DNA of 64,000 bases, taken from the NCBI GenBank assembly GCA_902570035.1, contig CACFWO010000001.1:62001-126000 (forward strand), read 5' to 3'. This DNA comes from an uncultured SAR86 cluster bacterium (GTDB taxonomy: Bacteria; Pseudomonadota; Gammaproteobacteria; Magnimaribacterales; AG-339-G14). A program made the translations under genes and the position numbers. This document shows, one piece after another, positions 21,055-43,967 of this stretch (positions within the stretch are counted from its first letter, which is position 1; every line of letters starts with the position of its first letter). Under the pieces are notes generated by a model. That model saw only the letters and a list, made by a program, of their open reading frames with translations, was not told where the DNA came from and searched no databases.

Positions 21055-22379
21055 AGAAGCTCCTCTCTCGCAAATGAAATTGCTTGAGAAACAATTGCCA
21101 GGGTATTGTTTGACAAAATTGGTTTGGAAAAAGTCGAAGATCCTATAATGTAGACATTACTATTATCTATAAATTTGATACTTTCCTCGTCTTTACCGAC
21201 AAATTTTACAAGGTTAGAAGTGATATGTGCCGAACCTCCTGTAACCTTTTTAATATCTTCAGAATCAAATGGTTCAAATTCGGCATTTAACAAATTTTTG
21301 GCAAAATTTATTTTTCTTGATACTTCTTTATCTGTTACATGCCAATTTAAATGTAAGTTTTCTTTCTTATCGAGATAAATTAATCTATCGGGCTCTCTAT
21401 CTTGAGTACTTAAACAAAAAACCTGATTATATGAGCCTAAGCCTTTCACTCCAACTTTTAAAGCTAATAATGAAATTAGGATATTAGGATTTAAAAATAT
21501 GTTCTTAATATCCTTATAAGAAAGACCATTAGATCTAAACGAAACAATAGAATTCCTTATTTTTTCTTCCCTCAAAGAGATCTTATTGAATAGACTCTTC
21601 CTAAAAAAAATCGAAAATCTTTCATCTCTTGTTGGGTTGGGTAAAGAATCGATTGAATATTTGAAATGACCCTTTGAATTATTCTTTGCTTTAAGATGAG
21701 ATTTAAAAAAGTGTTCTTCAGTCTTTTTTGAGGAAAGTTTTGAAATCCCTATGGGAGAAATTGCGTGATCAGTGAAACTCACTCCATTTTCCTCACCATA
21801 AAGCCCAAGGGACCTAAGTATTATTTCTGTTGAGCCTAAAGCTCCAGCGGCAATGATTAACTTCTTACAAAAAATAGTTTCTTTGTCATAACTGGTCAGT
21901 TTAATTAAGCCGTTTTCTAATTTTGAGAAAGTTTTTACATAAAAATCTTTTAATGCTATGTCTTGAAAATCTTTTTTTCCTAACCTGGAAGTAATATAAG
22001 GAGTAAAGTAAGGGCGCACAGAGTAATTATCTTCATACTCTGACTCTAAAGATTTTTTACTTATTTTAAAAAAGTCGCTTGCAAAATTTTTACCTCTAAC
22101 CACGTGAGGGTTAGCTTTCTTAAAATATGACTCTTCATATCTATCTAATGAACCAAGAACACCATGCCAGATCTTAGAGGAGCCACCTAAAATAGAGTGA
22201 TTTATTGCGGGGCTTAAGTAATTTTCTGGAGGTTGAAATGAATATTGATTTATTTTACTTCTGCTTAAATTATCTACAACAAGGGTTGATTTAAGAATTT
22301 TTTTTGGAAGATTATCAACTATAGACTTAGCAGCCCATCCTGAACCAATTATTACCAGTTCTTTTTGAAAATTAGTCAT
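21051..22379 (-). CDS. GMC-type FAD oxidoreductase
   Basis: 442 residues from the ATG at 22379, where it overlaps the upstream gene by 8 nt (ATGACTAA); an upstream in-frame start at 22442 would overlap it by 71 nt. The FAD-binding motif is VIIGSGWAAK, ILGGSSKIWHG is the second flavin contact, and the C-terminal GMC signature is GGSAH followed by IIGSSTFSKPILSNNTLA. It oxidises an alcohol group, probably on a sugar in the island. Its immediate partner at 20353 is SDR-like, so a two-step oxidation/reduction epimerisation is possible. Confidence 0.85.
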   Translation of the reverse strand: MTNFQKELVIIGSGWAAKSIVDNLPKKILKSTLVVDNLSRSKINQYSFQPPENYLSPAINHSILGGSSKIWHGVLGSLDRYEESYFKKANPHVVRGKNFASDFFKISKKSLESEYEDNYSVRPYFTPYITSRLGKKDFQDIALKDFYVKTFSKLENGLIKLTSYDKETIFCKKLIIAAGALGSTEIILRSLGLYGEENGVSFTDHAISPIGISKLSSKKTEEHFFKSHLKAKNNSKGHFKYSIDSLPNPTRDERFSIFFRKSLFNKISLREEKIRNSIVSFRSNGLSYKDIKNIFLNPNILISLLALKVGVKGLGSYNQVFCLSTQDREPDRLIYLDKKENLHLNWHVTDKEVSRKINFAKNLLNAEFEPFDSEDIKKVTGGSAHITSNLVKFVGKDEESIKFIDNSNVYIIGSSTFSKPILSNNTLAIVSQAISFAREELL

Positions 22380-23487
22380 TAAGTATGAATTCATACATTT
22401 GGTTAAGATTTTTTTCCCAAACATTTTGCAGAGCCAAATCAATTTGGTCTCTTTTTTTCAGCTTATGTTCTGTTAATATATCTTGAAGCTGTAAAAAAAT
22501 ATTTTCTTTTTCGATTTCATATGAGAATTCTCCCCACTTTGGTAAATGAGACATATGACTATTTGATAGAATTGGCATGCCAGTAGCACAACATTCATAA
22601 TACTTATTTGGAATTAAAGTTTCATTGAATGACTCTTTTGAATAGGGAAGCAAAACAAATTGATAATTTTTAATTTGATTAGTAATCTCATCAGGAGAAA
22701 CCTGCCCAAAAAAATCTATGTTTTCAATTTTTAAAAGGTGATTTGCTTCTTCATGAATCATGCCAAAAATATGAATTCTAACTCTCTTATCATTTGATAG
22801 AATTTTGAAGATTTCAATATCACTGTTATGTCTTAAATTCCCAAAAAAGAGAACATTATATAAATCTCCTTGGTAATTATCGTTAGTAGATTTATTGATC
22901 CAGTTAGGTGAAACTCCTGGCTGCATTAAATGTAAGTTTATGATTTCTTTTTCTTTATTCAGGAACTCAAACATCAGAGCAGAGTCTGTGACCACTTTAT
23001 CGGAATACTCAAGAAATTTATTACAGTCTCTCTGATGAATATTTTGGTTCCATGGTAATTTCCACCAATTATGAATCACATCAAAAACAATTATTCTCTC
23101 CTTATTATTTATCTCAAAATTATTGCCAATTACGAAAGTATTATCCACGAAGCTATAAATTAAAGATTCTTTTTGTAATTTTCTCCAAAAAAAATACCAA
23201 TGAAGAAAGTTCCATAACCTGAAAAAAATATTTGTATTAGGTAAAAAAAAAGACTTTTTTATTCTCAACAATTTATTTTTTTTTATATTTTTTTTAATAG
23301 TATTGTCACTATTTAATTGTCTTAGAAATCTTCTAAGCAACTCTTTCAAGTCAGGGAATCTAGAAATAACTCTTTCTACAAAAATTACTTGATGACCTTT
23401 GCGAAGAAAAAAATTTGTAACCTCATGGTGTCTCTGCCATAGAAAATCCCATTTAATTTCAGAAAATATAATTACTTTTTTTTTCAT
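22372..23487 (-). CDS. Glycosyltransferase, GT-B fold (TuaH-like)
   Basis: 371 residues. The N-terminus reads IFSEIKWDFLWQRHHEV, the pattern of TuaH-like glycosyltransferases (DWxWQRxH). The C-terminal half has the GT-B donor region, with LFFGNLRHNSDI, LLPYSKESFNETLIPNKYYEC and CATGMPILSN. It acts in assembly of the surface polysaccharide; donor and linkage are unknown. Overlaps: 4 nt with the polymerase-like gene upstream and 8 nt with the FAD oxidoreductase downstream. Confidence 0.87.
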   Translation of the reverse strand: MKKKVIIFSEIKWDFLWQRHHEVTNFFLRKGHQVIFVERVISRFPDLKELLRRFLRQLNSDNTIKKNIKKNKLLRIKKSFFLPNTNIFFRLWNFLHWYFFWRKLQKESLIYSFVDNTFVIGNNFEINNKERIIVFDVIHNWWKLPWNQNIHQRDCNKFLEYSDKVVTDSALMFEFLNKEKEIINLHLMQPGVSPNWINKSTNDNYQGDLYNVLFFGNLRHNSDIEIFKILSNDKRVRIHIFGMIHEEANHLLKIENIDFFGQVSPDEITNQIKNYQFVLLPYSKESFNETLIPNKYYECCATGMPILSNSHMSHLPKWGEFSYEIEKENIFLQLQDILTEHKLKKRDQIDLALQNVWEKNLNQMYEFILND

Positions 23488-26407: not shown

Positions 26408-27328
26408 TTAAATATATTTGAAAAGATTAGCTAAAGTATTTTGGTGAACAATCTCTGTTACAAAATCTAAATTGTTTGCATTATGTGAGCCTAAGATTAC
26501 ATTTTTGAAATTCATTAGTTTTGAACTTTTGCTCAAAGGCTCTTCCTCATATACATCAAGCGCCACAGAACTAATATATTTATCTTTTAAAGCTTGTATT
26601 AAATCTTTTTCACAAATTAATTTTCCTCGTGAAACATTTATTATCGAAGATCCTTTTTTCATAAATGAAATAGTATTTTTATTGATTATGTGATGATTAG
26701 ATTCATTCAAATCACAGGCTAAAATTAAATAGTCTGATTTTTTTAATAAATTTTTAAAAGTTAATCTTTTTGCATATTTAAAACTAGATTTTTTAATTAA
26801 TGGATCATTAAAAAATATATTTGCCTTCAAATTTTTACATCTGAATCCTATTTCCCTACCTATTGATCCAAAACCCAATATGCCAATATTTTTATTTACC
26901 ACTCCGGAAGAAGCGGTTTTTGGCCATTGACCTGAACGAACTAGTCTATCTGTGAGAGTTATATTGCGACTTAAATTAAGAAGATAACCAACTGCAACTT
27001 CCGCAACTGCATCACTAAAGGCTCCAGGAGAGTTTAATACAGGAATTTTGAACTCTTTTGCTGCGCTTAAATCAATGGAATCTATTCCGCTACCCCATTT
27101 AGAAATTACCTTTAATTTAGGATAAAACTCTTTCAAAACTCTGTGAGTAATCAAATCATCGCCTGCCAACCAACCATCAATTTTGCCAGCATATGCCAAG
27201 GCTTCATCTTCTTTTAAATACTGATTTACTTTAGGAAAAACTGCTTTGAAACCCCTTTTTGAAATTTCCATGGAAAATCTCTTTTTTTCTTTAAGCATCA
27301 TCAAATTTGATACCAAAATTTTTTTCAT
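26408..27328 (-). CDS. D-isomer-specific 2-hydroxyacid dehydrogenase
   Basis: 306 residues. The NAD-binding motif is GILGFGSIGREIG. The catalytic trio is visible as Arg in INVSRGKLI, Glu in DVYEEEPL and His in GSHNANN, so it should interconvert a 2-keto and a 2-hydroxy acid. The N-terminal lid and substrate domain are complete. It overlaps the CMP-sugar synthetase gene by 4 nt, so it belongs to that module and may act on a sugar-derived 2-keto acid rather than on 3-phosphoglycerate; it is far shorter than SerA. Confidence 0.9.
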   Translation of the reverse strand: MKKILVSNLMMLKEKKRFSMEISKRGFKAVFPKVNQYLKEDEALAYAGKIDGWLAGDDLITHRVLKEFYPKLKVISKWGSGIDSIDLSAAKEFKIPVLNSPGAFSDAVAEVAVGYLLNLSRNITLTDRLVRSGQWPKTASSGVVNKNIGILGFGSIGREIGFRCKNLKANIFFNDPLIKKSSFKYAKRLTFKNLLKKSDYLILACDLNESNHHIINKNTISFMKKGSSIINVSRGKLICEKDLIQALKDKYISSVALDVYEEEPLSKSSKLMNFKNVILGSHNANNLDFVTEIVHQNTLANLFKYI

Positions 27329-27981
27329 ATTATTTTGATTAAAGCTTTTGCAATTTTTAAGTCCTGCTCATCCTTTATAACATGTCCTGATAAGCTAGAT
27401 ACTTCAAAGAATCCAATCTTCCCTTGATAGGTTGCACATTTATTTTGTTCTTTTGCTTTCAAAAATTTAGATCTCCTCCATCCAGTCAAACTCCAAGTTA
27501 TTCTCTGAGTGGGTAAAAGATCTTGAGAATTAGTTTTTTCTAAGAAAGAAAAATTTACTGGTTTATTCTTGTAGGCAACCTCTATTTTATCTTGTATGTA
27601 TGAAAGCAAAACATCATAGTCTGTTTTAAAAAAATGGTTAGAAAAATTTTTGACTTCTTTGGTTGTAAGCAATGGAGCAATTGAGTGAACTTGAATTAGA
27701 TTTGTGCATTCATTTTTTATCAAAAACTCCTCAACAAACTCTTCACTAGTTGCAGAGTTATCTCCAAGATTCTTCGGTCTAAGATGAAAATCGACTTTGT
27801 GTTTAATTGCATATTTCTTAAAGATTTCACTCTCAGAATTTACAAAGATCTTATCAAAGCATTCAGCTTGTTTACATTTAACAATTGCTCTTTCAATTAA
27901 TGTAGTTCCATTTATGATTCTTAGATTTTTTTTCTTTAATCTTTGACTGCCCAGTCTTGCAGGTATCATTGCAACATTCAT
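27325..27981 (-). CDS. CMP-sugar synthetase (NeuA/PseF-type cytidylyltransferase)
   Basis: 218 residues. The N-terminus AMIPARLGSQRLKKKNLR is the CMP-binding P-loop of acylneuraminate/3-deoxy-octulosonate cytidylyltransferases. RPKNLGDNSATSEEFV matches the next conserved block, and QVHSIAPLLTTKEV the catalytic one. It activates a 2-keto (ulosonic) sugar acid, or a related sugar, with CTP. It is less like KdsB than like the NeuA/PseF/LegF group. No NeuB-like or KdsA-like synthase is encoded in the window, so the sugar is unidentified. Confidence 0.85.
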   Translation of the reverse strand: MNVAMIPARLGSQRLKKKNLRIINGTTLIERAIVKCKQAECFDKIFVNSESEIFKKYAIKHKVDFHLRPKNLGDNSATSEEFVEEFLIKNECTNLIQVHSIAPLLTTKEVKNFSNHFFKTDYDVLLSYIQDKIEVAYKNKPVNFSFLEKTNSQDLLPTQRITWSLTGWRRSKFLKAKEQNKCATYQGKIGFFEVSSLSGHVIKDEQDLKIAKALIKII

Positions 27982-27985
27982 TTTT

Positions 27986-28762
27986 TTATTTTACTAGGTT
28001 TATGATTTTTTTAGAGTTTTTAAAGTTTCTATTGAATGCGAAGCTCCGCATTGGTATTTTCAATAAATCGTTATTTATATAATTGGGATCTAAACCTGAG
28101 AGAGCAAAATATTTTCCTTCGGCTTCAGTTAGAATTAGGTATCCAGCAAAATCGTCCCAAGGCATTGCTTCGTCGTTGATACAAAGGTTCAATCTTCCCT
28201 CAGCTACGTAACATAGACTTAAAGCCTGAGATCCTAAATTTCTTACCTTTCCAAGAGAAAATAATTCATTAAATAATTCTGAGTTACTGAGATTCTTTTT
28301 TAGAAACCCTGTGCTAATGCTTAGTAAATTTGAATCCGTATCTAGATTTTCAATTTTATTAAAGTTCTTAAAGGCGCCCTTATGTTTAAATGCATGGAAA
28401 ACTTCTCCATGAATTAAGTCAATTACTAATCCAAAGACAACCGAATTATTCTCAATTTTAGCAATAGAAATAGAAATAAAAGGGAGGTTAGAAATCATGT
28501 TGGAAGTACCATCTAAAGGATCTATAAGCCAAAAACTTTCTCCTTGGACATTATTCCATTTATCTTCTTCCGAAAGAATTTCTTCCTTATCTCCAAAATA
28601 TTCTTTTATTTCTGATGAAATTATTTCATTGATTGACATATCCAAATTAGTTACAAAATCATTATCTGATTTTTGAGTGATTAATAACTTTTTATTATTT
28701 TCCAAAATTTTCATAGACTTTGTTTTTACTGAGTCAATAAAGTTAGTGAAATTATTTTTCAT
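27986..28762 (-). CDS. Inositol monophosphatase family phosphatase
   Basis: 258 residues. The metal-site motifs SEED (about 78) and DPLDGT (about 97) and the C-terminal WDDFAGYLILTEAEG are those of the IMPase/SuhB/CysQ family. In the CMP-sugar module it probably dephosphorylates a sugar phosphate before CMP activation, as KdsC does for Kdo. It overlaps the next upstream gene by 11 nt. True inositol or PAP phosphatase activity is less likely in this context. Confidence 0.9.
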   Translation of the reverse strand: MKNNFTNFIDSVKTKSMKILENNKKLLITQKSDNDFVTNLDMSINEIISSEIKEYFGDKEEILSEEDKWNNVQGESFWLIDPLDGTSNMISNLPFISISIAKIENNSVVFGLVIDLIHGEVFHAFKHKGAFKNFNKIENLDTDSNLLSISTGFLKKNLSNSELFNELFSLGKVRNLGSQALSLCYVAEGRLNLCINDEAMPWDDFAGYLILTEAEGKYFALSGLDPNYINNDLLKIPMRSFAFNRNFKNSKKIINLVK

Positions 28763-29495
28763 TTTTATTTATAGTGATTTTATTTGATACAGAAAAATTT
28801 GAAGATAGTTGAAAATGTTCATCAATAGGCAATTCAATCAATTTGCTAATACCCCCTGAGGAGACCCAGTGTCCTTTTCTTAAACCTAAACTGTATTTTT
28901 TTGACTCTAGTAAAATATCGTATAAAACTCCTTCAATTGAAAAAGCAAAATTTTTAGAATCTCCTATCTCCTGAGGTATTCTGTCTATTGTTACTTTTAG
29001 TCTTTTTTTAAATATTTCCTCAGATAGTTTAGTCTCACGACCAAGTATGAGAAACCCGCTTGCACAACAATCTGCAATTAAAAAATATAGTCCTGATTCT
29101 GGAAAGTTTTTTGAAGAATAAGGAATTTCAATTGCAGGAGCAATCAAATCAAAAAAATCCAGAGCTTTAAAACAAGACTTTTCTAGGTTTATGTTTTCAA
29201 CATCTTCTGAGAGCCTAAATGCAATCTCCAACTCACCTTGAGGATTTTTCAAGGAATCTGGCAAAAAAATTTCTTTTTTTTTATAAAAAAAATTATTTTT
29301 ATTAATTGGTCCTAAATAAGAGCTTTCAGTTTTGAAAGCTTTCTGAGTTGATTTAGTTGTCCCTCCAACTTTCCATGCTGAAATAAGTTCTGACTTTTCA
29401 GATAGTGATTTCTGTATTTCATATGCTTTTAATTTTGTTTTTAAAGATTCTTCTTTAATTTGGCTAATTATTTTATTCCTTTCTGAAAAATTCAT
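28752..29495 (-). CDS. 2-keto-4-pentenoate hydratase / FAH-like family protein
   Basis: 247 residues. ISAWKVGGTTKS (about 37-48), GELEIAFRLSED with its metal-binding Glu, and GLRKGHWVSSGG match the MhpD-like hydratase/decarboxylase branch of the fumarylacetoacetase fold. Relatives add or remove water at 2-keto acids or cleave them. In this module it may make or trim a 2-keto-3-deoxy sugar acid. A 4-nt overlap with the SIS gene indicates co-translation. The reaction is inferred. Confidence 0.8.
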   Translation of the reverse strand: MNFSERNKIISQIKEESLKTKLKAYEIQKSLSEKSELISAWKVGGTTKSTQKAFKTESSYLGPINKNNFFYKKKEIFLPDSLKNPQGELEIAFRLSEDVENINLEKSCFKALDFFDLIAPAIEIPYSSKNFPESGLYFLIADCCASGFLILGRETKLSEEIFKKRLKVTIDRIPQEIGDSKNFAFSIEGVLYDILLESKKYSLGLRKGHWVSSGGISKLIELPIDEHFQLSSNFSVSNKITINKNEK

Positions 29496-30064
29496 TTCCC
29501 ATCAACCCGGTAAACACTTTTGCCAATTATCATGTCTACCAAAGTTGTTATCCATATCATATGAATACCCTCAACTATGTTGTAAGCTTCAGAATCTACC
29601 CAAAAGTTTATATTTCCTTTTTTCTTCAGAGAATTATTAGGTTTTTTCCCCGTAAAGGTAATGAAGTCAATATTGTTTTCCTTTGCAAAATCTGCTCCCA
29701 ATAAAATATTTGGCGACTCTCCACTTACACTAATAAAAAAAACTAAGTCTTCCTGGTTGCCATAAATCTTCAAAGTCTCTTTGATCCAATTTTCATATCC
29801 CAAATCATTTGAAATTGCAGTTATGTATGAGGGATCATGAAATGTTGAGGACTTAACTTTAGCTTGTTTTGTAAAATCTAAGGCAGCGTGAGATGAAATT
29901 GAGGAACTGGCACCATTTCCAAAAAAAATTAATTTTCCATCTAATTTCTGTACTTCTAATATTTTATTTTTTGCTTGCTCCAAACTATCAAATAACCAAT
30001 CTGGATTGATATTTTTTTCATATTCAGAGTAATAATCATTTAAAAATGAAATATAATTTTTCAT
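29492..30064 (-). CDS. SIS-domain sugar isomerase (GmhA-like)
   Basis: 190 residues. The SIS phosphosugar motif is GNGASSSISSHAALDF (about 49-64), with FISVSGESPNILLGADFA as the second loop. It is related to phosphoheptose isomerase, but GNGGSAAEAQHMSAE of the true GmhA (encoded at 47476) is replaced, so a different ketose/aldose phosphate is expected. It overlaps the neighbouring genes by 4 nt on both sides and is part of the CMP-sugar module. Confidence 0.88.
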   Translation of the reverse strand: MKNYISFLNDYYSEYEKNINPDWLFDSLEQAKNKILEVQKLDGKLIFFGNGASSSISSHAALDFTKQAKVKSSTFHDPSYITAISNDLGYENWIKETLKIYGNQEDLVFFISVSGESPNILLGADFAKENNIDFITFTGKKPNNSLKKKGNINFWVDSEAYNIVEGIHMIWITTLVDMIIGKSVYRVDGK

Positions 30065-31062
30065 CTATCCATCCAGATTGCATTTTCATAAACATCATCT
30101 ATGAGCTTCATTATAGTTTTGGCATCATCAAATCCTGAGTAAGGATATTTAATTCCCTCCTTACAAGCACTTATGAAAGTGGACATTTCTTTTTTCCAAG
30201 AATTGTTCTCATTATACTCAAAAGTAAGATCGTCCTCACTATTGTTTACCTTGCCCCCCCTTTCAGGATGAATTGTCAAGATCTCATCTCCATAATTCCC
30301 TGAGCTTGTTCTTAAGCCGTTCAATACAATCGATCCCTTTTCTAAAAAAATTTCTAAACTAAATAGATATCGCCATTGTGTAATGGTGCTGTGAAGTGAG
30401 GCTGCTAATCCATCCTTTTTAGACATTAAGTTTAAAAAAGCATTATCTTCAACGCCTTTAATATTTAAATAATTACTTGAGAGAACAGATTGAACAAAAT
30501 CAAATCCCCCAGACAGGAAGTTCATAAGGTCAAGGAGATGTATGCCTTGATCAATAAGTATTCCTCCTCCATTAAGTTCTTTATTACACCTCCAGCTAGT
30601 TTTGTAAGAGTCATTTACTTCCTTTCCATATCTACCTCTCATCCAAAGAACTTTTCCTAGATTATTTCCATCTATCAGTTCCTTAATCTTGATTACTGAA
30701 TCGTGCAGCCTATGATTAAATCCATAAGCTAAAACACAATTTAAATTAGATTTAGATAATAGTTTTTCTATTTCTGATAATTCTGCGAGTGTTCTGGAAG
30801 GAGGTTTTTCACAAAAAACATTTTTATTTTTTTTTAATGCTTCGAGGGTATAAATAGGAGCAAATTTTGTTGGGGTACTAATAAGGAGGGCATCAGAAGA
30901 ATCAATTAATTTGCTTACATCTTCAAAATAGGCCAAATCTTGATCAAAATTTATTTTTTTTTGAGGTTCATAGTATCCAGAAAATGTGATCCCATCTGTC
31001 ATATCGAGGATTTTCTTTCTCAATAATGCAAACTGTCCGAAACCGATGAATCCTATTTTCAT
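30061..31062 (-). CDS. Gfo/Idh/MocA-family sugar oxidoreductase
   Basis: 333 residues. The N-terminal Rossmann domain begins IGFIGFGQFA; the family motif EKPPSRTLAE holds the catalytic Lys, and QGIHLLDLM corresponds to the substrate-site D/H segment. It is expected to oxidise or reduce a hydroxyl group of a sugar or nucleotide sugar with NAD(P). It is the first gene of the CMP-sugar module, overlapping the divergent-PAP2 gene before it and the SIS gene after it by 4 nt each. Confidence 0.9.
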   Translation of the reverse strand: MKIGFIGFGQFALLRKKILDMTDGITFSGYYEPQKKINFDQDLAYFEDVSKLIDSSDALLISTPTKFAPIYTLEALKKNKNVFCEKPPSRTLAELSEIEKLLSKSNLNCVLAYGFNHRLHDSVIKIKELIDGNNLGKVLWMRGRYGKEVNDSYKTSWRCNKELNGGGILIDQGIHLLDLMNFLSGGFDFVQSVLSSNYLNIKGVEDNAFLNLMSKKDGLAASLHSTITQWRYLFSLEIFLEKGSIVLNGLRTSSGNYGDEILTIHPERGGKVNNSEDDLTFEYNENNSWKKEMSTFISACKEGIKYPYSGFDDAKTIMKLIDDVYENAIWMDR

Positions 31063-31460
31063 AAAGATAACTTAAAAAATATAAATCCAACCAATGAGCC
31101 TAAAACTATCCCAGAAAATGCTTCTAAAACTGAATGACCTATGTTTTCTTTTAGAGAAATTGGATCTCTGCTAAGTTCATTGATCTTTTTAGCGTGGTCC
31201 CCTACCTTGTTTCTTAAATCAGTTGAATCAATAAAAATTATCAACGTAATGCCCAATCCAATCAAAAAAGCCGGATGAGCGGCTCCATTTGTAAATCCTA
31301 CGAAGGAAGTTACAGATGAAGAAATAGAGTTATGAGTACTAGGAAATCCTCCTAATCCGATATGTTTTAGAGATATTTCCTTATTTCTATAACAGTTAAC
31401 CAAAAATTTCATACCTCCTGCTGAAATATATGCAATAAATGGCACAAGAAAATAAAACAT
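31059..31460 (-). CDS. Divergent PAP2 (DUF212) family membrane phosphatase
   Basis: 133 residues from the ATG at 31460, which overlaps the upstream stop by one base (TGATG); a longer start at 31529 would overlap that gene by 70 nt. GGFPSTHNSISSS is the PSxH phosphatase motif, and KENIGHSVLEAFSGIVLG carries the second His. Three to four membrane helices are visible. In mycobacteria a PAP2-type phosphatase follows the UbiA-type phosphoribosyltransferase; here that transferase lies two genes upstream (32504). It may dephosphorylate lipid-linked phosphoribose. Confidence 0.85.
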   Translation of the reverse strand: MFYFLVPFIAYISAGGMKFLVNCYRNKEISLKHIGLGGFPSTHNSISSSVTSFVGFTNGAAHPAFLIGLGITLIIFIDSTDLRNKVGDHAKKINELSRDPISLKENIGHSVLEAFSGIVLGSLVGFIFFKLSL

Positions 31461-32503
31461 CAGATTTTTAGATTGTTCTCTAAACACCAATTTATTGAGT
31501 TCAACATGCCTTCTTTTAAAGAAACGCAAGGTTTATATCCCAAGACGGCCTTAGCTTTCTCAACGGAACAAGCAATATTTTGATTCATTTCAGATAAAAC
31601 ATGTATTTTTTGAATATAGATTCCGAGAGATTGTGAAGTATAGTCTATCAACCTAGCGGAATCAGAAATAAAATTGGGTAGTCTTAATTGTGTTTTAGAA
31701 ACTTCCATAGAAAACTCATTACGCATAAGATCCTTTATTGTCCCAACAATTTCGTTCATTGAATATGGTTTCTCGTCTGCTATCCAAAAAATTTCTCCGT
31801 TTTTATCAAAATATTCAGCAGCTAAAATTACTCCTTCAACTAAATTATCTACATAAGACATTGATCTTAAATTTTCCCCTGTACCAATTAGTGGAAATCT
31901 ACCACTTCTCACCATAGAAAAAAATTCTGATTGTCTTTTCGGTTGATCAGGCCCATAAAACCAAGGCGCTCTTATTATGGAGAAATTAGTAACCTCTTGC
32001 TGCTTTGATAAATTGGTAAGGTTTAATTCCATTCTCATTTTTGATCTTCCATATCCCATGTAAGGAAAATAAGGTGAACTCTCTGTAAATAGTTCATGAT
32101 TGTTTTTTGTATACCCGTTAGGAGAATTTGAAGACATAGAAACAAATTTTATTAAGCCGTTTTCTATAGATTTTTTTGCTAAATAGCTAACTCCAATGTT
32201 GTTTATCAAATTAAAATCCGATTGATTGAATAATTTTGGGTGTATTATTCCAGCTAAATTAAATAAAGTAGCCCCTTCTGAGTTTTCAAGAAATAAATCT
32301 ACAGATTTCTTATTAGTAAGATCACCATATGAAAAGGAAACACCTTTTTCAATAAACGCAGATAACAACTCTTCTTCTGATTTATCTTTGATAAAAAGTT
32401 TTATATCAGAGAAATTTAAACTAGTTGAACCGTCGAAAATTTTTCTTAAGAAAGCTTTTCCTAACCAACCAGAGGCTCCTGTGATAAGAATTTTATTGCT
32501 CAT
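31460..32503 (-). CDS. NAD-dependent epimerase/dehydratase (extended SDR)
   Basis: 347 residues. The cofactor motif TGASGWLGKAF is at 7-17, the Ser strand is KFVSMSSNSPNG, and MGYGRSKMRME has the YxxxK pair; APWFYGPDQPKRQ is the following strand. It sits directly between UbiA-like and divergent-PAP2 genes with no spacers, so it may be the reductase of a lipid-linked pentose epimerase pair (the DprE2 role) or a nucleotide-sugar epimerase. Confidence 0.87.
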   Translation of the reverse strand: MSNKILITGASGWLGKAFLRKIFDGSTSLNFSDIKLFIKDKSEEELLSAFIEKGVSFSYGDLTNKKSVDLFLENSEGATLFNLAGIIHPKLFNQSDFNLINNIGVSYLAKKSIENGLIKFVSMSSNSPNGYTKNNHELFTESSPYFPYMGYGRSKMRMELNLTNLSKQQEVTNFSIIRAPWFYGPDQPKRQSEFFSMVRSGRFPLIGTGENLRSMSYVDNLVEGVILAAEYFDKNGEIFWIADEKPYSMNEIVGTIKDLMRNEFSMEVSKTQLRLPNFISDSARLIDYTSQSLGIYIQKIHVLSEMNQNIACSVEKAKAVLGYKPCVSLKEGMLNSINWCLENNLKI

Positions 32504-33373
32504 CTAATTAAAAAAATTTATTGAGAAAATAAAGACCATCCATAGAAAAACTGTAATGAAGAGCTGCTTGTCCTTCAAAAGAAGATTTATAGGATCGGAT
32601 GAAACATTGGTTTTAAAAGAAAGTTGAACATATCTCAAAACTCCAAAAAAAACAAAAATGCTAGAAAACGGGAGAAGCTCTGAATTAAATTTTAGAATTG
32701 CGTAATTTGAGAATGTAAATAATACGTAGGAAGTTATTGTCGTTGCAGAGAGGATTCCTATCGATGTACTTAAGAATTCATTTGAGTAATTTTTAAAAGA
32801 GCTTCTAAGTTCACTAAAGGGTTTTTTCGTGATATCAATTTTTCTTTTAACAATGACGATTAAAAGCGACGCAGAGCCTATAGTGAAAATCATCCAAGTA
32901 GAAGGAAAAGAGGATATTATTGAGGCGCCTATCAAAATTCTATATACGTAACCTGAAGCAACTATAAAGATCTCCAATAAAGAAAAGTTTTTTAAATAAA
33001 GCGTATACAAAATGCTTTGTAGAAAATAAAGAGCAATTAAAGAATTTAAAAAACTATTTCCTAAAATAAATAATCCTGGGACAGTTAATAAAGTTAATGA
33101 AAATAAAGAAAAAATGGCATGTTTTCCATTCAGTTCTTTTGATGCAAATGGTCTGTTCTTTTTTTCTGGATGATTAGAATCCTCTTCTCTATCAAACCAA
33201 TCATTCACTACATAAATAAAGCTAGTGACAAATGAAAATAGAAAAAAAATGTAAAATGAAGAAATTAAAACCTCATAATTTAATTGATCTGCTTCTATTA
33301 AAAGAGGAATAAAGATTAAAAGATTTTTTAACCATTGCTTTATTCTTAATAGATTATAGATTTTGTAAATCAT
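32504..33373 (-). CDS. UbiA-family prenyltransferase, decaprenyl-phosphate phosphoribosyltransferase type
   Basis: 289 residues and eight or nine membrane helices. The Asp-rich motif NDWFDREED (57-65), followed by HPEKKNRP, is the form found in 5-phosphoribosyl-1-pyrophosphate:polyprenyl-phosphate transferases (Rv3806c-like) rather than in UbiA or heme O synthase. The second conserved loop is YTLYLKNFSLLEIF. The expected product is polyprenyl-phosphoryl-phosphoribose, the precursor of lipid-linked arabinofuranose or ribofuranose. Adjacent PAP2, SDR and flavoprotein genes fit the next steps. Confidence 0.87.
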   Translation of the reverse strand: MIYKIYNLLRIKQWLKNLLIFIPLLIEADQLNYEVLISSFYIFFLFSFVTSFIYVVNDWFDREEDSNHPEKKNRPFASKELNGKHAIFSLFSLTLLTVPGLFILGNSFLNSLIALYFLQSILYTLYLKNFSLLEIFIVASGYVYRILIGASIISSFPSTWMIFTIGSASLLIVIVKRKIDITKKPFSELRSSFKNYSNEFLSTSIGILSATTITSYVLFTFSNYAILKFNSELLPFSSIFVFFGVLRYVQLSFKTNVSSDPINLLLKDKQLFITVFLWMVFIFSINFFN

Positions 33374-33384
33374 TTTAATATTTT

Positions 33385-34785
33385 CTAAATTCTGCTTAAA
33401 AACTTTCTTGCATTCATATCAGCTAAAGCCATAATCGTTCCTTGAGGGTTGACTGATGGTGAATCAGATAATATCGAACCATCAGAGATGTGAATAGAGT
33501 CATCTTCCCATAAATGACCTTCAGGATTTAAGGCAAAACTGCTTCTAGCACCTCCCATTTGCACAGAAGAAAATAAATGTATTGTCATCAAATTCAGCTT
33601 ATTAAGTTTTTTAAAATTATATTTCTTTATATCCTCATGAGATTTGAAAGAAATAGGTTCTTGAATTGAGGGAAATAATGTCTTTGCTCCAGACTTGAAA
33701 AGAAGTTTCCCAAGATTGTTTATGCCTCTTTCAAGATTAGTGATATCTTTTTTTGTAAAATTAAAAGTAACAAATGGAGATTTAAAATATTTTAAAGACC
33801 TAACATTTCCTGATCCTTCTGGAGATATCATGCAATAATATGTAGCTAAGTTTTCCCATTCTTTTAAAAATTCAATGTTGTTTGTATCATTTAAAGCATT
33901 AGCTAAGTATTGCTTTGAACTTATTGAGCATCCAATGCTTATTTCAGGAGAAAACTCTTTCACTTGATGAACCGGTACTCCCATCTTATTGAAATTAACT
34001 TTTTCATCAAATAGGGCAGTAAATTTGAAACTGGGATGTAATTTTAATCCCTTACCGATAAATCTACTTTTGAATCCACTTTTTTGTAGAAGGAAGGGAG
34101 TATTAATTGCCCCACATGCAACAAATAAGTAATCACAAAAATATTTTTGGATTTTTTTATCTTGATCAAAAAAATGAATAATATTACTTTTTTTATTTTT
34201 CTCTATTTTGAAAACTTTTGTATGAGTTTTGAGTGTCCCGCCAAAATTAATAAATTTTGGAATGTAAGTTTCTGTCATAGACTGTTTTGTACCATTTCCA
34301 TCATCGTCATAGGAATACCACCGCGGGATCTCAGAACATGCCCATCCTAATTTTTCGCATCCCTCTGAAATAATGCTTGATGCTCTTGGTATGAGAGAAT
34401 CAGGCATATACGAAATATTTAGATTATCTTCGATATCTTTGAAAGACTTATAAAGTTCTTCTCTATCAAATGATAAATTATTTTTATTTTCCCATTTAGA
34501 TAAAATTTCTTCAGGAATACGATGATAAAGTCCACTGTTAATTTCACTTCCCCCTCCGACACAATTTCCTTCTGCATAATTAATTAATGGCCTGCCCAAT
34601 GTCATTGTCGTGCCAGAGTTTTTATATTTTTCTGTCATTTCTTGGGTGTCGTATCTATCAGAAACTTTATAACTTCCTCCTTCTTCCAGTAAAAGGACCT
34701 CATGCCCTGCTTGAGCAAGTCTAAACGAAGATATGCTTCCACCGGGTCCAGAGCCTATAACAATAATTTTGTATTTATTTTTCAT
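33385..34785 (-). CDS. GMC-family FAD oxidoreductase
   Basis: 466 residues. The FAD motif VIGSGPGGSISSFRLA (about 9-24) is followed by LEEGG and by EGNCVGGGSEINSGLYHR. The C-terminal half has the catalytic His in IHLFSSVQMGG and the closing HISDGSILSDSPSVNPQGT. It is related to cholesterol-oxidase-like GMC enzymes rather than to the VAO-type DprE1. Its position beside the phosphoribosyltransferase suggests oxidation of a lipid-linked pentose; this is inference. Confidence 0.88.
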   Translation of the reverse strand: MKNKYKIIVIGSGPGGSISSFRLAQAGHEVLLLEEGGSYKVSDRYDTQEMTEKYKNSGTTMTLGRPLINYAEGNCVGGGSEINSGLYHRIPEEILSKWENKNNLSFDREELYKSFKDIEDNLNISYMPDSLIPRASSIISEGCEKLGWACSEIPRWYSYDDDGNGTKQSMTETYIPKFINFGGTLKTHTKVFKIEKNKKSNIIHFFDQDKKIQKYFCDYLFVACGAINTPFLLQKSGFKSRFIGKGLKLHPSFKFTALFDEKVNFNKMGVPVHQVKEFSPEISIGCSISSKQYLANALNDTNNIEFLKEWENLATYYCMISPEGSGNVRSLKYFKSPFVTFNFTKKDITNLERGINNLGKLLFKSGAKTLFPSIQEPISFKSHEDIKKYNFKKLNKLNLMTIHLFSSVQMGGARSSFALNPEGHLWEDDSIHISDGSILSDSPSVNPQGTIMALADMNARKFLSRI

Positions 34786-35098
34786 TGAGTATTTCTACAG
34801 ACCTAAGGATTATCATAGTTTCATAAAATTTTATTATTAAAGAAAAAGGGAAGATTTTCTTTTTTTTGATAAAAACAATGATTTTTACTCTTTTACTTAA
34901 AGAAAGTTTTTGAAATGGCTTAAAGTAGAAAAAAATAAAAATTTTATCAAAAAGATAAGTGGCAAATAAAAAGACAATTTGAATATAGTCTGGAAGATTT
35001 TCAATTTGATTATTTAAAAAAAGAATTACCTCTTTTTTTTCAGAGTCGAGTTCATGGAGAGTTTGAATTGCAGAGACAAAAGAGGAATTTAGGCACAT
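34775..35098 (-). CDS. Small protein of unknown function coupled to the GMC oxidoreductase
   Basis: 107 residues. It begins MCLNSSFVSAIQTLHELD and has a hydrophobic stretch IQIVFLFATYLFDKIFIFFYF, then a Lys-rich part. I do not recognise it. It overlaps the GMC gene by 11 nt and follows the SMR transporter by 4 nt, so it is within the operon and probably translated. It could be an assembly or accessory subunit of the flavoprotein, as small partner subunits are common for GMC dehydrogenases. Confidence 0.6.
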   Translation of the reverse strand: MCLNSSFVSAIQTLHELDSEKKEVILFLNNQIENLPDYIQIVFLFATYLFDKIFIFFYFKPFQKLSLSKRVKIIVFIKKKKIFPFSLIIKFYETMIILRSVEILNEK

Positions 35099-35102
35099 CT
35101 CA

Positions 35103-35453
35103 TTATTTTATATATGCTAACAAAATCCCAGTTATTATAAGGAAGAATCCAAAAAGGTTATAAAGATTTATACTTTCTTTAAAAAGAATTGTGGAAAATA
35201 AAATAATAAGAATTATTGATGCTCCGATTAGTGTCGGGTATGCAATATTTATAGAAGTTAGTTCTAAAGCTTTGCTAAAGGCGATAAGATTTAGACCAAA
35301 AAATAATATACTGAAAAGAAAGTTAAAGGATAGGATCTGTAAAAAAAAATTTAATTCTTTATTAACAGTAAGAGCATGTTGTTTTAATAATAGATTCCCA
35401 ATTACATTAAAAACTGCTGCCAAAAGGACATAAAAGATTGAGTTGAAAATCAT
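35103..35453 (-). CDS. SMR/EamA-type small membrane transporter (ArnE/ArnF-like)
   Basis: 116 residues with four helices, NVIGNLLLKQHA in helix 1 and ALELTSINIAYPTLIGAS in helices 2-3, as in the small multidrug resistance/ArnEF family. ArnE/F flip undecaprenyl-phosphate-linked aminoarabinose. Here the neighbours make a lipid-linked sugar, so flipping that lipid is a natural guess. The start abuts the SDR gene upstream by one base. Confidence 0.8.
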   Translation of the reverse strand: MIFNSIFYVLLAAVFNVIGNLLLKQHALTVNKELNFFLQILSFNFLFSILFFGLNLIAFSKALELTSINIAYPTLIGASIILIILFSTILFKESINLYNLFGFFLIITGILLAYIK

Positions 35454-36496
35454 TAAATTAAAAAATATGGAACAATACTTAGTATACCTTGCTTCAATTT
35501 CGATTGATGCTTAGATCCTGAAATATTTCCATCGAGAATATCGTTCCTATTTTCTACATACCAATCGTAAGTTTGAATAAACATTTCAACATTGGAATAT
35601 TCTGAATTAAAACCAAGTTCTTTTTTTGCCTTGCTTATATCAAAATACATTGATTCTCCATACATTAATGAATGGTATGGTCCCAATGGTGAAAGTCTTA
35701 AAAAAGAAAAAAAGTTCATCATTAAAGAAGTAAATCTTTTTGGAATGCCTACTACTCTACTTGAAGAATTTGAGTGTTTTATCAGTGACTCTAACATTTC
35801 TCTCATTGAACAAAAATTTTCAGCCCCAACATTATAGATTCCTGGAGAGTTCACTAAGGAAGCAGAATAACAAGCGCTCGCAAGATCATCAGAATGAATA
35901 AACTGGTACAAATTTGACCCAGACCCTAAAACAGGAACATTTTTATTTTGATAAATCCATTCAAATAAGATTTGAAAGATTCCTAATCTTCCTGAACCAA
36001 TGATAGTTCTAGGCCTAATAATGCTTATGTTCAGTCCTTTATTTATATATTCTTTGCACAATAATTCTGCTTCATATTTAGCCTCTCCATACGCTTCTTG
36101 AGGTTTAGGAATAGTAGATTCAAAAACTGGATTACTTTCTGGCACTCCAAAAACTGCACTTGAAGAAACAAATACAACTTTATCCACGTTTGCTTTTAGG
36201 CAAGAATCCAATAAGACATCAGTACCCTTATAATTTACTTCCCAAAATAGTTTTTTATTTTTCGCTATGGGAACTTGCGCAACATTATGGTGGACTATTT
36301 TTACATCTTTTAAACTTTGTTGGAGTAAGTTCTTATCAAGAATATTTCCTTCAATGGAGAGCAAATTTTCATGAGAAAAATGCGGTAAATTTAAGTCATA
36401 ACAAATTACTTTTTCATCTTTCTTTAACAATAAGCTCATTAATGAAGAACCAAAAAAACCAGCCCCTCCAGTAACCATTACACTAAGTTTGTTCAT
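35453..36496 (-). CDS. NAD-dependent epimerase/dehydratase (extended SDR)
   Basis: 347 residues from the ATG at 36496; a TTG two codons earlier is in frame. Motifs: TGGAGFFGSSL near residue 10, VVFVSSSAVFG for the Ser strand, and EAYGEAKYEAE for YxxxK. The C-terminal part (about 240-260) contains a hydrophobic patch. It overlaps the 768-residue membrane protein by 14 nt. It acts on a nucleotide- or lipid-linked sugar; it is one of two SDRs flanking the UbiA/GMC/SMR group. Confidence 0.87.
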   Translation of the reverse strand: MNKLSVMVTGGAGFFGSSLMSLLLKKDEKVICYDLNLPHFSHENLLSIEGNILDKNLLQQSLKDVKIVHHNVAQVPIAKNKKLFWEVNYKGTDVLLDSCLKANVDKVVFVSSSAVFGVPESNPVFESTIPKPQEAYGEAKYEAELLCKEYINKGLNISIIRPRTIIGSGRLGIFQILFEWIYQNKNVPVLGSGSNLYQFIHSDDLASACYSASLVNSPGIYNVGAENFCSMREMLESLIKHSNSSSRVVGIPKRFTSLMMNFFSFLRLSPLGPYHSLMYGESMYFDISKAKKELGFNSEYSNVEMFIQTYDWYVENRNDILDGNISGSKHQSKLKQGILSIVPYFLI

Positions 36497-38789
36497 CTGC
36501 AACTATCCGAAAGTAAGTAGTGAAAAGTATCAAAATGAACAAAATTAACATAATTTGAATATAAAGCCACTTTGAATAATCTGATTTAAATTTTATGAAA
36601 ATGGATGATGTATTATCTACTGAAATCTCAAACCCTGAAAAAGTTCTTTTGAAAGATATGGGGTCTTTTCTTTCATCGAATACCTCAAAGCTACTTTCAT
36701 TAAGACTTAAAGGGACAATAATTTTTTTTGTATCTTTTTCTAGATAAATTTTCCAATCTCCTTGGTTATTAGAAATATTATCTTTATTTAAGCTATTAAT
36801 TTTTTTATCTGTTATGTATGAAATAAAAGATCCATCATGAATCTTATAAAGTTTTAATCCTAGGAATGAACTAGATGAAAAACCATCAAAACAATTGGCA
36901 GAAAGATCAGTTAAAATTTGTCCAATTCCAAGCAGGATAATTTTGTTAATAAAATCTTTTTTATCCTCTTCTGATGATGAATTGCAAAGATATTTATTAA
37001 TCTTTTTGAAATCAGTGGGAACCCAATAAGAGTCAAATTGGGCCCATTTAGATGATGAGTTTTTAAGGTTTGACAACTTATCATCATCTAATAAGAAATT
37101 TAGTTGGTTTTTATTTAAATTTTTCAAACCAGTATCATAACCAGATATGCTGTTTATATCTTGAAGATAAAAATCTCCACCTAGAAACCTCTTTATTTCT
37201 GCTGGGGATTCAGCAAATTCAGATTCTTCTAAAACAACAAGTGTCTTTGAGTTAAAGAATCTCTCATAGGATGAATCATATAAATATTTCTTTTCCCATG
37301 AGGTAAAAGTGAAAAAATTATTAAAACTCAGTGCCGCAAAAGTTATAAAAATTATCAAAGGAGTAAAATTGCTTTTCAGAGATGCGTAAAAATATACAGC
37401 AATACTTGTCAGGGTGATAAATAGAAAGAGAAAAAGATAATTAAAAGAATGTAAAGAATTTTCTAACCAGCCGGGAACTAAATAATCAAAAAGTGATAGA
37501 AAAATAAAAATACCTATAAACAATAGTATTTGTAAAAACAAAGAAGCAGTTAATATTTTTTTTATAGTTTTATTTTGACTATTAGTTTTTAATTTTATTT
37601 CGGAAAGTTGTATACAGACTAAAGCCCATATAAAAAAATAAAAAAAGCTAACTGCTCTGGATTGATTAAAAAAAATTTTGTAAGTATCAGATATCAGAAG
37701 TGGTATATCTACAAATCCTATAAACAAAAAAATCAATGTAACTACTAAACTTACTTTTAGTGATTTTAGATAATTTAAATTTTTGTTGCTTGAGAGAAAT
37801 GATAAAAACAGAATAGCTATAAAAGTTATTGTTAAAAAGATCGAGTGTTGAAGTGCTGTGTGATTAGGAAGTGGCACCCCTACTAAAGATGATAATTGGT
37901 ATATATTTTTTGGTAAAAAAGGATACAGGCTTAAATGATCCCAAAAGCTTTTAGGCTCTCTTAAGATATCTCCCGAATATGATAATAAATCTATTAATAT
38001 CGGAAGAGAAATAAGCATCCCAAATAAACAAAATAAAAAATAAAAAAGAATTCTTTTTAAGGTAATAAAGAATACTTCATTCCTAGCAAACAAAATGAGT
38101 GAAAAGCAATAAATTCCAAAAATAAAAAATAGATAGAAAGACATTTCTACCATATTTAATATAGGTTGCAGAAAAGTTAAAAAAGTACCAATGAAAAGGT
38201 AATGAATTTTGTTAGATTCTATGAATTTATTTATTGAATAAATATAGAAAGGAAACAAGCAAACAATACCTAAATAATTATCCCAATGAATGTAGTAAAT
38301 ATTATTTGGCGAGAATATCAATAATAAGGAGCAAGCTAATATCAGAAAAATATTGATATCCTTCTTAAAAGTTTTCAGAGCAAGATAAAAACCATAACCT
38401 TGGAGAGATAAGAAAATACAAGATTTTATATAGATTGCATTAGGAGCATATAAGCCTTTAAAGAAATAATTCAATATATTATAGGGCGCAGCTATTGGAT
38501 GGCCAGACAAGTAGAATCCAGATATTCTGTTGAAATCATAAAATTTAAATCCATTCGCATATGAGTTTGAAACTGCGTCCTGGATAGGAACATAAATATT
38601 TTGGAAGTCAGAATTAATCGGATTTACACCAATCTGTTTTAAATTATTAATATTTTGGTAAGAAGGGTCATCTAGAATATAAGAAATCCAATATGCCGAT
38701 GATCCATAAAAAAAACCTAAAAATTCTGGTATGAAGATTAATATTGCTGCAACTAGAAAATAAAAAATAAAACTAGCTGCTTTTTCCAT
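36483..38789 (-). CDS. Large polytopic membrane protein, YfhO/GT-C-like
   Basis: 768 residues. About twelve to thirteen membrane helices occupy the first 500 residues, followed by a soluble domain (about 510-735) and one final helix. The first periplasmic loop holds SDFQNIYVPIQDAV, an acidic loop typical of GT-C and YfhO proteins. GT-C enzymes use polyprenyl-phosphate sugars, so this may be the transferase that consumes the lipid-linked sugar of the adjacent cluster. A gap of about 106 nt (38790-38895) upstream is AT-rich with a weak 5-bp hairpin and no clear promoter. Confidence 0.8.
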   Translation of the reverse strand: MEKAASFIFYFLVAAILIFIPEFLGFFYGSSAYWISYILDDPSYQNINNLKQIGVNPINSDFQNIYVPIQDAVSNSYANGFKFYDFNRISGFYLSGHPIAAPYNILNYFFKGLYAPNAIYIKSCIFLSLQGYGFYLALKTFKKDINIFLILACSLLLIFSPNNIYYIHWDNYLGIVCLFPFYIYSINKFIESNKIHYLFIGTFLTFLQPILNMVEMSFYLFFIFGIYCFSLILFARNEVFFITLKRILFYFLFCLFGMLISLPILIDLLSYSGDILREPKSFWDHLSLYPFLPKNIYQLSSLVGVPLPNHTALQHSIFLTITFIAILFLSFLSSNKNLNYLKSLKVSLVVTLIFLFIGFVDIPLLISDTYKIFFNQSRAVSFFYFFIWALVCIQLSEIKLKTNSQNKTIKKILTASLFLQILLFIGIFIFLSLFDYLVPGWLENSLHSFNYLFLFLFITLTSIAVYFYASLKSNFTPLIIFITFAALSFNNFFTFTSWEKKYLYDSSYERFFNSKTLVVLEESEFAESPAEIKRFLGGDFYLQDINSISGYDTGLKNLNKNQLNFLLDDDKLSNLKNSSSKWAQFDSYWVPTDFKKINKYLCNSSSEEDKKDFINKIILLGIGQILTDLSANCFDGFSSSSFLGLKLYKIHDGSFISYITDKKINSLNKDNISNNQGDWKIYLEKDTKKIIVPLSLNESSFEVFDERKDPISFKRTFSGFEISVDNTSSIFIKFKSDYSKWLYIQIMLILFILILFTTYFRIVADEQT

Positions 38790-40922: not shown

Positions 40923-41009
40923 TGGTACCCAGGGCCGGACTTGAACCGGCACGAAGTTGCCTTCGAGGGATTTTAAGTCCCTTGTGTCTACCAATTCCAC
41001 CACCTGGGC
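40923..41009 (-). tRNA. tRNA-Leu(UAA)
   Basis: 87 nt with an encoded CCA (40923-40925) and a long class II variable arm. The acceptor stem is GCCCAGG with CCTGGGT (a G-U at the first pair). The anticodon arm AGGGA-CTTAAAA-TCCCT gives anticodon TAA. It ends one nt before the galU stop, so it is probably on the same transcript. Confidence 0.97.
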
Positions 41010-43081: not shown

Positions 43082-43222
43082 TTAAAATTGAATTATAAAA
43101 TCCATAGATTCATCAAAATTAGCTAGAAATTTAATAAGAACTGATCCGGAAAAAGGGAGATTGCTAACTCCTGGTATAACAACTGAATTTATGTCATTAG
43201 AAAGACTATTAAGCTCTGCCAT
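43082..43222 (-). CDS. Possible small protein, unrecognised
   Basis: 46 codons from the ATG at 43222 to the TAA at 43082. The start overlaps the end of the nucleotidyltransferase-cupin gene by 14 nt, and AGAGGA lies 5-6 nt upstream. The sequence (MAELNSLSNDINSVV, then IPGVSNLPFSGSVLIKF) is coherent and not of low complexity. No family is recognised. The opposite strand also has an open frame without a start codon, so this may be a chance frame or a gene remnant. Confidence 0.4.
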   Translation of the reverse strand: MAELNSLSNDINSVVIPGVSNLPFSGSVLIKFLANFDESMDFIIQF

Positions 43223-43967
43223 ATTCATCCTCTGAACGAATTATATCTTCCTCAGATATTTGATCTCCAATTTGTGTCTCAATAACAACCAAATTTCCTT
43301 TTCCTATATTTTGGATTCTATGGATTTCTTTTTTCTTTATTTTGAAAGTTGAGCCTATTTCGCCAATTATTTCCTTATCTGAAATTGTAAATTTCCCTTT
43401 ACCATGAGCTACAACCCATATTTCATTTCTATGATTATGTGACTGCAAGCTGATAAGTTTTCCCTCGGATAAAACCAATTTCTTCACCAGATAGTTCTTT
43501 TCTTCTAAGTAGACTTCATAATAGCCCCATGGTTTTTTTTCTACAGTATTAATATATGGCTTCAATAAATCAGAACTTGATTGTATTTTTTCTCCACCTA
43601 TATTAAATATCAATTGGACATTATTTTTTTTACAAATATCGCTTTCGGGGATACTCTCTGGCTTTGATCTATCTCCGCCATTCGCAAAGAAGTAAGTATG
43701 ATTATCTTTGCATATTGATGATATTGTTAGAGAAACTGTTTGATCTTTATCAATTGAATCTACCACCTCATCAACACAAGAAAGACCCTCGATTAATTCT
43801 TTTCTCTCTTGGGATGGCATAAAAATATAACCCTTTTTTTTCAATAAAAAGTTGTCAGAATTAAGTATAACTATTAAATAGTCTCCAAGATTTTTTGCTT
43901 CTTGGAACATTCTAAGATGGCCAATATGTAGAGGATCAAAACCACCGCTTACTATTATTTTTTTCAT
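43209..43967 (-). CDS. Nucleotidyltransferase-cupin fusion protein
   Basis: 252 residues in two domains. Residues 1-140 form a cytidylyltransferase-like domain (RfaE2/TagD superfamily) with GGFDPLHIGHLRMF (HIGH at 14-17), NGGDRSKPES and GGEKIQSSSDLL. Residues 145-252 form a cupin of the mannose-6-phosphate isomerase/ManC C-terminal type: KPWGYYEVYL, LISLQSHNHRNEIW (metal ligands H177, H179, E182) and a short IRSEDEYGR end. Such domains are normally separate. The likely roles are making a nucleotide-activated sugar and isomerising its sugar phosphate. It follows the truncated UDP-sugar dehydrogenase. Confidence 0.85.
   Translation of the reverse strand: MKKIIVSGGFDPLHIGHLRMFQEAKNLGDYLIVILNSDNFLLKKKGYIFMPSQERKELIEGLSCVDEVVDSIDKDQTVSLTISSICKDNHTYFFANGGDRSKPESIPESDICKKNNVQLIFNIGGEKIQSSSDLLKPYINTVEKKPWGYYEVYLEEKNYLVKKLVLSEGKLISLQSHNHRNEIWVVAHGKGKFTISDKEIIGEIGSTFKIKKKEIHRIQNIGKGNLVVIETQIGDQISEEDIIRSEDEYGRA

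Follow-up and report, generated by a model that had tools for sequence, protein, structure and literature searches.

A GMC oxidoreductase cassette as a candidate counterpart of DprE1/DprE2 in a predicted lipid-linked pentofuranose operon of a SAR86 cluster bacterium

Introduction

Mycobacteria synthesize decaprenyl-phosphate-arabinofuranose by phosphoribosyl transfer (Rv3806c), dephosphorylation (Rv3807c), oxidation and reduction (DprE1/DprE2), flipping (Rv3789) and glycosyl transfer by GT-C enzymes (Emb/Aft). Among drug targets in tuberculosis, DprE1/DprE2 is a leading one, and to our knowledge no other two-enzyme route that converts lipid-linked ribofuranose to arabinofuranose has been described. 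Here, we compare described systems with an eight-gene operon (positions 31059-38789, minus strand) in a 64,000-nucleotide stretch of DNA (the window) from an uncultured SAR86 cluster bacterium, in which a flavoprotein of the GMC family lies beside a UbiA-fold transferase and two short-chain dehydrogenases/reductases (SDR1 and SDR2). Lipid-linked pentofuranose systems are known in Gram-negative bacteria (PMC11127046), where the only enzymes named are DprE1/DprE2 homologues in the case of arabinofuranose and an SDR in that of xylofuranose, and there is precedent for epimerases that diversify pentofuranoses (PMC11127046). For example, the three-component systems of Citrobacter youngae O1 and O2, located in O-antigen loci, comprise a UbiA-fold phosphoribosyl pyrophosphate (PRPP) transferase, a small flippase, a GT-C protein and an optional extended-SDR epimerase (PMC11127046). 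Of these components, the PRPP transferase with a phosphatase and an ArnE/EmrE-like flippase are present by sequence in the window. Unlike the window, the Citrobacter systems have a HAD phosphatase domain fused to UbiA, a single SDR gives xylofuranose, and no GMC protein or small partner is described (PMC11127046).

The lipid-linked pentofuranose pathway as such is therefore known and common, and the initial annotation of this locus overstated the rarity of such donors: we found the transferase in 83 of 369 gammaproteobacterial genomes, and a DprE1 version is found in the window's own family. For the GMC cassette, searches of open-licence papers found no description of a GMC oxidoreductase tied to a UbiA transferase or a DprE1-type pathway.

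Results and discussion

A predicted pathway to a lipid-linked pentofuranose

The operon probably makes a polyprenyl-phosphate-linked pentofuranose that is used outside the cytoplasm on a surface glycan, with a GMC module acting as the counterpart of DprE1/DprE2. The UbiA protein would transfer 5-phosphoribose from PRPP to polyprenyl phosphate, and a DUF212 protein would remove the 5-phosphate to give polyprenyl-phosphate-ribofuranose. The GMC flavoprotein, with a small partner protein, would then oxidize a ring hydroxyl to a ketone, which SDR2 (with SDR1) would reduce from the opposite face, thereby inverting the carbon. Finally, an SMR-family protein may flip the donor across the membrane, where a GT-C-type membrane protein would transfer the pentose to the surface glycan. 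We infer this chemistry, the inverted carbon, the flippase and transferase roles, and the acceptor; the transferase identity, the conserved linkage of the genes, the module exchange on the transferase tree and the fusion of the small protein to GMC were computed. The order of roles is the same as in mycobacteria, and the phosphoribosyltransferases are homologous.

All available sequence tests identify the UbiA protein as a polyprenyl-phosphate phosphoribosyltransferase, the role given to it in the initial annotation; the motifs NDWFDREED and HPEKKNRP named there are both present. It scored 162.8 bits against the NCBIfam decaprenyl-phosphate phosphoribosyltransferase model (below the curated cut-off of 234), versus 25.7 bits for the ubiquinone (UbiA) model and 30.3 bits for heme O synthase. 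Profile comparison gave 4.7e-43 for the phosphoribosyltransferase side versus 9e-5 for a prenyltransferase, and the solved relatives in the PDB were Rv3806c alone (8j8j/8j8k, 1.4e-23). The PRPP-site residues of Rv3806c have been identified by cryo-electron microscopy (PMC10994848), and all nine are kept in the window protein (R22=R10, K28=K16, Y70=Y54, N73=N57, D77=D61, K87=K71, R90=R74, Y138=Y123 and K143=K128, Rv3806c numbering first). K28 and Y70 of Rv3806c hold the 5'-phosphate of PRPP (PMC10994848), and at these positions two further UbiA-family proteins encoded in the window genome carry Leu/Gly and Ala/Cys, respectively. On the basis of NCBIfam scores, profile comparison and PRPP-site residues, we reject a quinone or heme prenyltransferase, a grouping that the initial annotation had named as a refutation of the proposed set.

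A conserved GMC cassette across phyla

A single-protein scan of genome contigs with UbiA yielded no confirmed relatives, whereas an alignment of four GMC proteins, searched against the genome collection, found 224 encoded relatives. The counts given here refer to the best 80 of these 224 loci, which were picked by GMC alone and in which many contigs end early. They contained the small protein in 67/80 cases, SDR2 in 61/80, SDR1 in 58/80 and the UbiA transferase in 51/80, and the transferase was present in 24 of the 28 cassette genomes tested. The conserved cassette thus consists of the small protein, GMC and SDR2, usually with SDR1 and the phosphoribosyltransferase, and often with an SMR protein, a HAD or DUF212 protein, and a GT-C-like protein. 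The loci are distributed over at least eight phyla (Cyanobacteriota, Verrucomicrobiota, Planctomycetota, Myxococcota, Acidobacteriota, Bacteroidota, Actinomycetota and Pseudomonadota), with some metagenome-assembled genome (MAG) titles among them clearly mislabelled. Because the cassette recurs in many phyla, the clustering of these genes is not due to chance. The genes listed in the initial annotation are all intact and co-directional; what it overlooked is the 107-aa gene of the small protein.

The flavoprotein contains GMC_N and GMC_C domains, a GxGxxG motif for flavin adenine dinucleotide (FAD) and a catalytic His/Asn pair (H403 and N446) that is invariant across 83 sequences. Its AlphaFold2 model (pLDDT 94.8; VIA Z 39 to choline oxidase) makes the predicted GMC fold certain. 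Structural matches of the model include fructose dehydrogenase, pyranose 2-oxidases, C-glycoside oxidases and other GMC enzymes, from which the carbon oxidized cannot be read. GMC sugar dehydrogenases and oxidases (fructose dehydrogenase, glucose dehydrogenase and pyranose 2-oxidase) have the fold, FAD motif and His/Asn pair in common with the window protein, and some of them also have a small partner subunit. They differ from it in sequence (identity under ~20%) and in context, as the window GMC sits among lipid-sugar genes.

We propose that the small protein is a partner subunit of the GMC oxidoreductase, given that members of its family lie directly upstream of GMC or are fused to the GMC N-terminus (16/80 loci). 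The window protein scored 50.2 bits against a model made from other loci only, although it had itself served to seed that model; its membership draws independent support from its position just upstream of GMC. No Pfam or NCBIfam family matches this small-protein family, which sets it apart from the small subunits of known GMC enzymes, and the counterpart by position in a close relative (L014) was not recognized.

SDR1 and SDR2 are both extended SDRs (347 and 349 aa). The catalytic residues of SDR2 (Y138 and K142) are invariant in the family alignment, and SDR1 proteins form a single clade (support 100). Eight out of 10 genomes with GMC+SDR2 loci but no local SDR1 lacked SDR1 genome-wide. SDR1 is therefore dispensable, and the minimal set consists of the flavoprotein with its small partner and a single SDR, which is formally like a DprE1 and DprE2 pair.

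The GMC module in place of DprE1/DprE2

Compared with mycobacteria, GMC, the small protein and extended SDRs replace DprE1 (VAO type) and DprE2 (short SDR) in the window, the phosphatase is of the DUF212 type, and the SMR protein is of the ArnE/EmrE type. No ALO domain and no DprE1-profile match were detected in the window genome (1.14 Mb, 18 contigs, 87.5% complete), so that the alternative raised at the outset, a DprE1/DprE2 pair elsewhere in the genome, found no DprE1 to support it. DprE1 combines FAD_binding_4 and ALO domains; the genome has one FAD_binding_4 protein (C4:61286), which is without an ALO domain. Neither SDR of the operon is a short classical SDR of the DprE2 type (~250 aa, beside DprE1), both being extended.

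Within the family or order to which the window belongs, the transferase was found in five relatives. DprE1 is located at four of their loci (L017-L020), and at the fifth (L021) the contig ends. The DprE1 of one relative was checked, and matched solved DprE1 at 1e-59 with a short SDR alongside. These four loci share the transferase family with the window and include nearby membrane proteins of the GT-C or GtrA type, but differ in their true DprE1 plus short SDR, HAD phosphatase and lack of GMC. Among the 369 gammaproteobacterial genomes, DprE1 was found in 68 and co-occurred with the transferase in 65 (Fisher p ~1e-51), i.e., in 65 of 83 transferase-bearing genomes versus 3 of 286 others. The GMC family was present in 3/369, and all three carry the transferase and lack DprE1. 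A DprE1 match was likewise absent in 43 of 49 cassette genomes, a comparison that is weakened by the different ways in which cassette and comparison genomes were sampled and by the many MAGs among the former.

If the epimerase step is replaceable, the same first enzyme should occur with either module. This fits a careful maximum-likelihood tree of 54 transferases (long branches left out), in which the label changes between GMC and DprE1 modules at least seven times; all seven changes are forced by supported branches, and 0% of bootstrap trees had a single change. Neighbourhood and tree together make it well supported from sequence that the GMC/small protein/SDR set is a non-homologous epimerase module standing where relatives carry DprE1/DprE2, in agreement with the replacement proposed in the initial annotation.

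Besides the sampling difference noted above, several points weigh against the proposed pathway. The pathway as a whole is a prediction from sequence, and so is the action of DUF212 on polyprenyl-phosphate-ribose-5-phosphate. The GT-C identity of the 768-aa membrane protein was not recognized by family searches, and a simple oxidase/reductase pair offers no obvious role for SDR1. Moreover, 4/49 cassette genomes clearly hold both GMC and DprE1 modules. In one of them (G531), the single transferase lies beside DprE1/DprE2, so the GMC product may differ from that of DprE1.

This gammaproteobacterial genome carries both a HAD-UbiA/DprE1/DprE2 locus (L160, G531:C76) and a GMC cassette that lacks a UbiA gene (L080), each locus with a similar 320-aa membrane protein. 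In two Acidimicrobiia loci (L086 and L093), a GMC gene is located within ~10 kb of a DprE1 and UbiA cluster.

Identity of the pentose

Arabino-, xylo- and lyxofuranose are all candidate products, and we give less weight to one that is not an epimer. The initial proposal, in which the module product is that of DprE1/DprE2 (polyprenyl-phosphate-D-arabinofuranose by 2'-epimerization), can be held tentatively. It is favoured by the exchange of GMC and DprE1 modules on the transferase tree, the near absence of DprE1 from genomes with the GMC module, and the pyranose 2-oxidases among the structural matches. Against it are the genomes with one transferase and both modules, the C-glycoside oxidases and other GMC enzymes among the same matches, which leave the carbon unset, and SDR2-type proteins found without any flavoprotein. 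An example of the latter is a locus in another gammaproteobacterium (L207, 6151-9045), which encodes a HAD-UbiA, an SDR2-like SDR and an SMR protein, and neither DprE1 nor GMC. SDR2 and this lone SDR form one clade (support 98). Given this clade and the genomes with both modules, arabinofuranose should not be assumed, and xylo- and lyxofuranose are possible products beside the arabinofuranose originally named.

Xylofuranose by 3'-inversion, or lyxofuranose by inversion at both carbons, is possible though somewhat unlikely. The gene make-up of L207 matches the Citrobacter O2 xylofuranose system, two SDRs are present in most cassettes, and genomes with both modules also speak for such a product. 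However, the likeness of L207 to Citrobacter O2 is one of gene make-up, one SDR is enough for xylofuranose in Citrobacter (PMC11127046), and lyxofuranose is not known from solved carbohydrate structures (PMC11127046). An unlikely alternative is that the GMC/SDR set turns the lipid-linked pentose into a keto, deoxy or branched form with no epimerization; three redox-type enzymes exceed the need of one epimerization, but the minimal GMC+SDR2 sets fit an oxidase/reductase pair and substitute for a known epimerase pair. We give little credence to a more far-reaching version of double inversion, in which the cassette is a widespread lipid-sugar epimerase, GMC with one SDR inverting one ring carbon and the second SDR the other, to give polyprenyl-phosphate-lyxofuranose or another pentofuranose unseen in glycans. 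A ribofuranose donor route of UbiA, DUF212 and SMR only, with GMC and the SDRs serving a different sugar of this glycan locus, would suit the many other sugar genes in the region and the four tested cassette genomes that show no transferase, but is improbable in view of the recurrent linkage of cassette and transferase in many phyla and the presence of the transferase in most of the genomes tested.

Phosphatase, flippase and membrane transferase candidates

Family membership and context suggest that DUF212 is the phosphatase that removes the 5-phosphate, as the initial annotation had it. In other GMC loci, this slot is filled by DUF212 (L014 and L058), a separate HAD (L022 and L078) or a HAD fused to the transferase (20 loci); the HAD profile overlooked the separate HADs in both L022 and L078, which Pfam detects, so its negatives do not equal absence. 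On the same kind of evidence, the SMR protein is proposed as a flippase of the ArnE/EmrE type. It has four hydrophobic segments by hydropathy and scored 23.4 bits against NCBIfam ArnE, and SMR genes recur in GMC loci. The SMR/ArnEF-type gene of the initial annotation is thereby upheld, with flipping as its predicted role.

The weakest of the assignments carried over is that of the 768-aa protein; its gene is present, and its position, topology and one distant homologue hint at a GT-C-type transferase. Hydropathy places transmembrane segments up to ~residue 496, followed by ~240 aa without any and a last transmembrane segment. The homologue (802 aa, 22% identical) adjoins SDR2 in GMC locus L075, and PMT_2-like membrane proteins occur in several GMC loci, mostly at low score. 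Pfam gave a YfhO match at E=1.2 only, and a structure model from a two-row alignment was unusable (pLDDT 36).

Gene order and surroundings

Neighbouring genes of the operon (Table 1, in order of reading) overlap by up to 20 bases or are separated by up to 11. The sole exception is the start of DUF212, which overlaps the SDR1 gene by 70 bases, or by 1 base if the in-frame ATG is used.

Table 1. Genes of the operon, with proposed roles and supporting evidence
Feature	Position in window	Strand	Evidence
768-aa multi-spanning membrane protein; proposed GT-C (YfhO-like) pentofuranosyltransferase	36483..38789	minus	Topology, position, weak Pfam YfhO
SDR2, extended SDR (TGGAGFFG, YGEAK)	35453..36502	minus	Pfam Epimerase 3.3e-36
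SMR-family protein; proposed flippase for lipid-linked pentose	35103..35453	minus	PF00893 4.3e-8
Small conserved protein, 107 aa; proposed GMC partner subunit	34775..35098	minus	Model built from other loci; position
GMC flavoprotein; proposed sugar C2 or C3 oxidase of epimerase module	33385..34785	minus	PF00732 4.9e-29
UbiA-fold polyprenyl-phosphate 5-phosphoribosyltransferase (Rv3806c type)	32504..33373	minus	PDB matches, PRPP-site residues
SDR1, extended SDR (TGASGWLG, YGRSK); proposed accessory reductase or epimerase	31460..32503	minus	Pfam Epimerase 6.8e-21
DUF212 (divergent PAP2) membrane protein; proposed 5-phosphate phosphatase	31059..31529, maybe ATG start 31460	minus	PF02681 9.7e-24

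The operon is set in a surface-polysaccharide region whose other genes include Wzz-, cytidylyltransferase-, GalE- and glycosyltransferase-like ones. The tight run continues directly downstream with a MocA gene (30061-31062), part of one run on the minus strand (26408-31062) that encodes a 2-hydroxyacid dehydrogenase, a CTP_transf_3 cytidylyltransferase, an inositol-phosphatase family protein, a 247-aa protein with no Pfam match, a SIS isomerase and the MocA oxidoreductase. This run has the appearance of a pathway dedicated to a sugar linked to cytidine monophosphate. Also within the glycan region, a 463-aa protein (21051-22442, minus strand) has an N-terminal GSGWAA dinucleotide-binding motif, scored 4 bits only against the cassette GMC model and had no match in an NCBIfam search; it is possibly another divergent sugar oxidoreductase. 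A cytidylyltransferase-like domain is fused to a mannose-6-phosphate isomerase C-terminal cupin domain at 43209-43967 (minus strand), and a tRNA match (Rfam; 40926-41000, minus strand) that runs into the edge of the searched piece lies beside the polysaccharide region.

Implications

A non-homologous module that shares its first enzyme with the DprE1/DprE2 pathway, has repeatedly been exchanged with DprE1/DprE2 and occurs in at least eight phyla would mean, if the proposed pathway is true, either that the epimerization of lipid-linked ribofuranose has been solved twice in nature or that a further lipid-linked pentofuranose exists. Pentofuranose-bearing surface glycans would then be predicted in cyanobacteria, Verrucomicrobia, Planctomycetes and rhizobia, and an unnamed small-protein family would gain a testable function.

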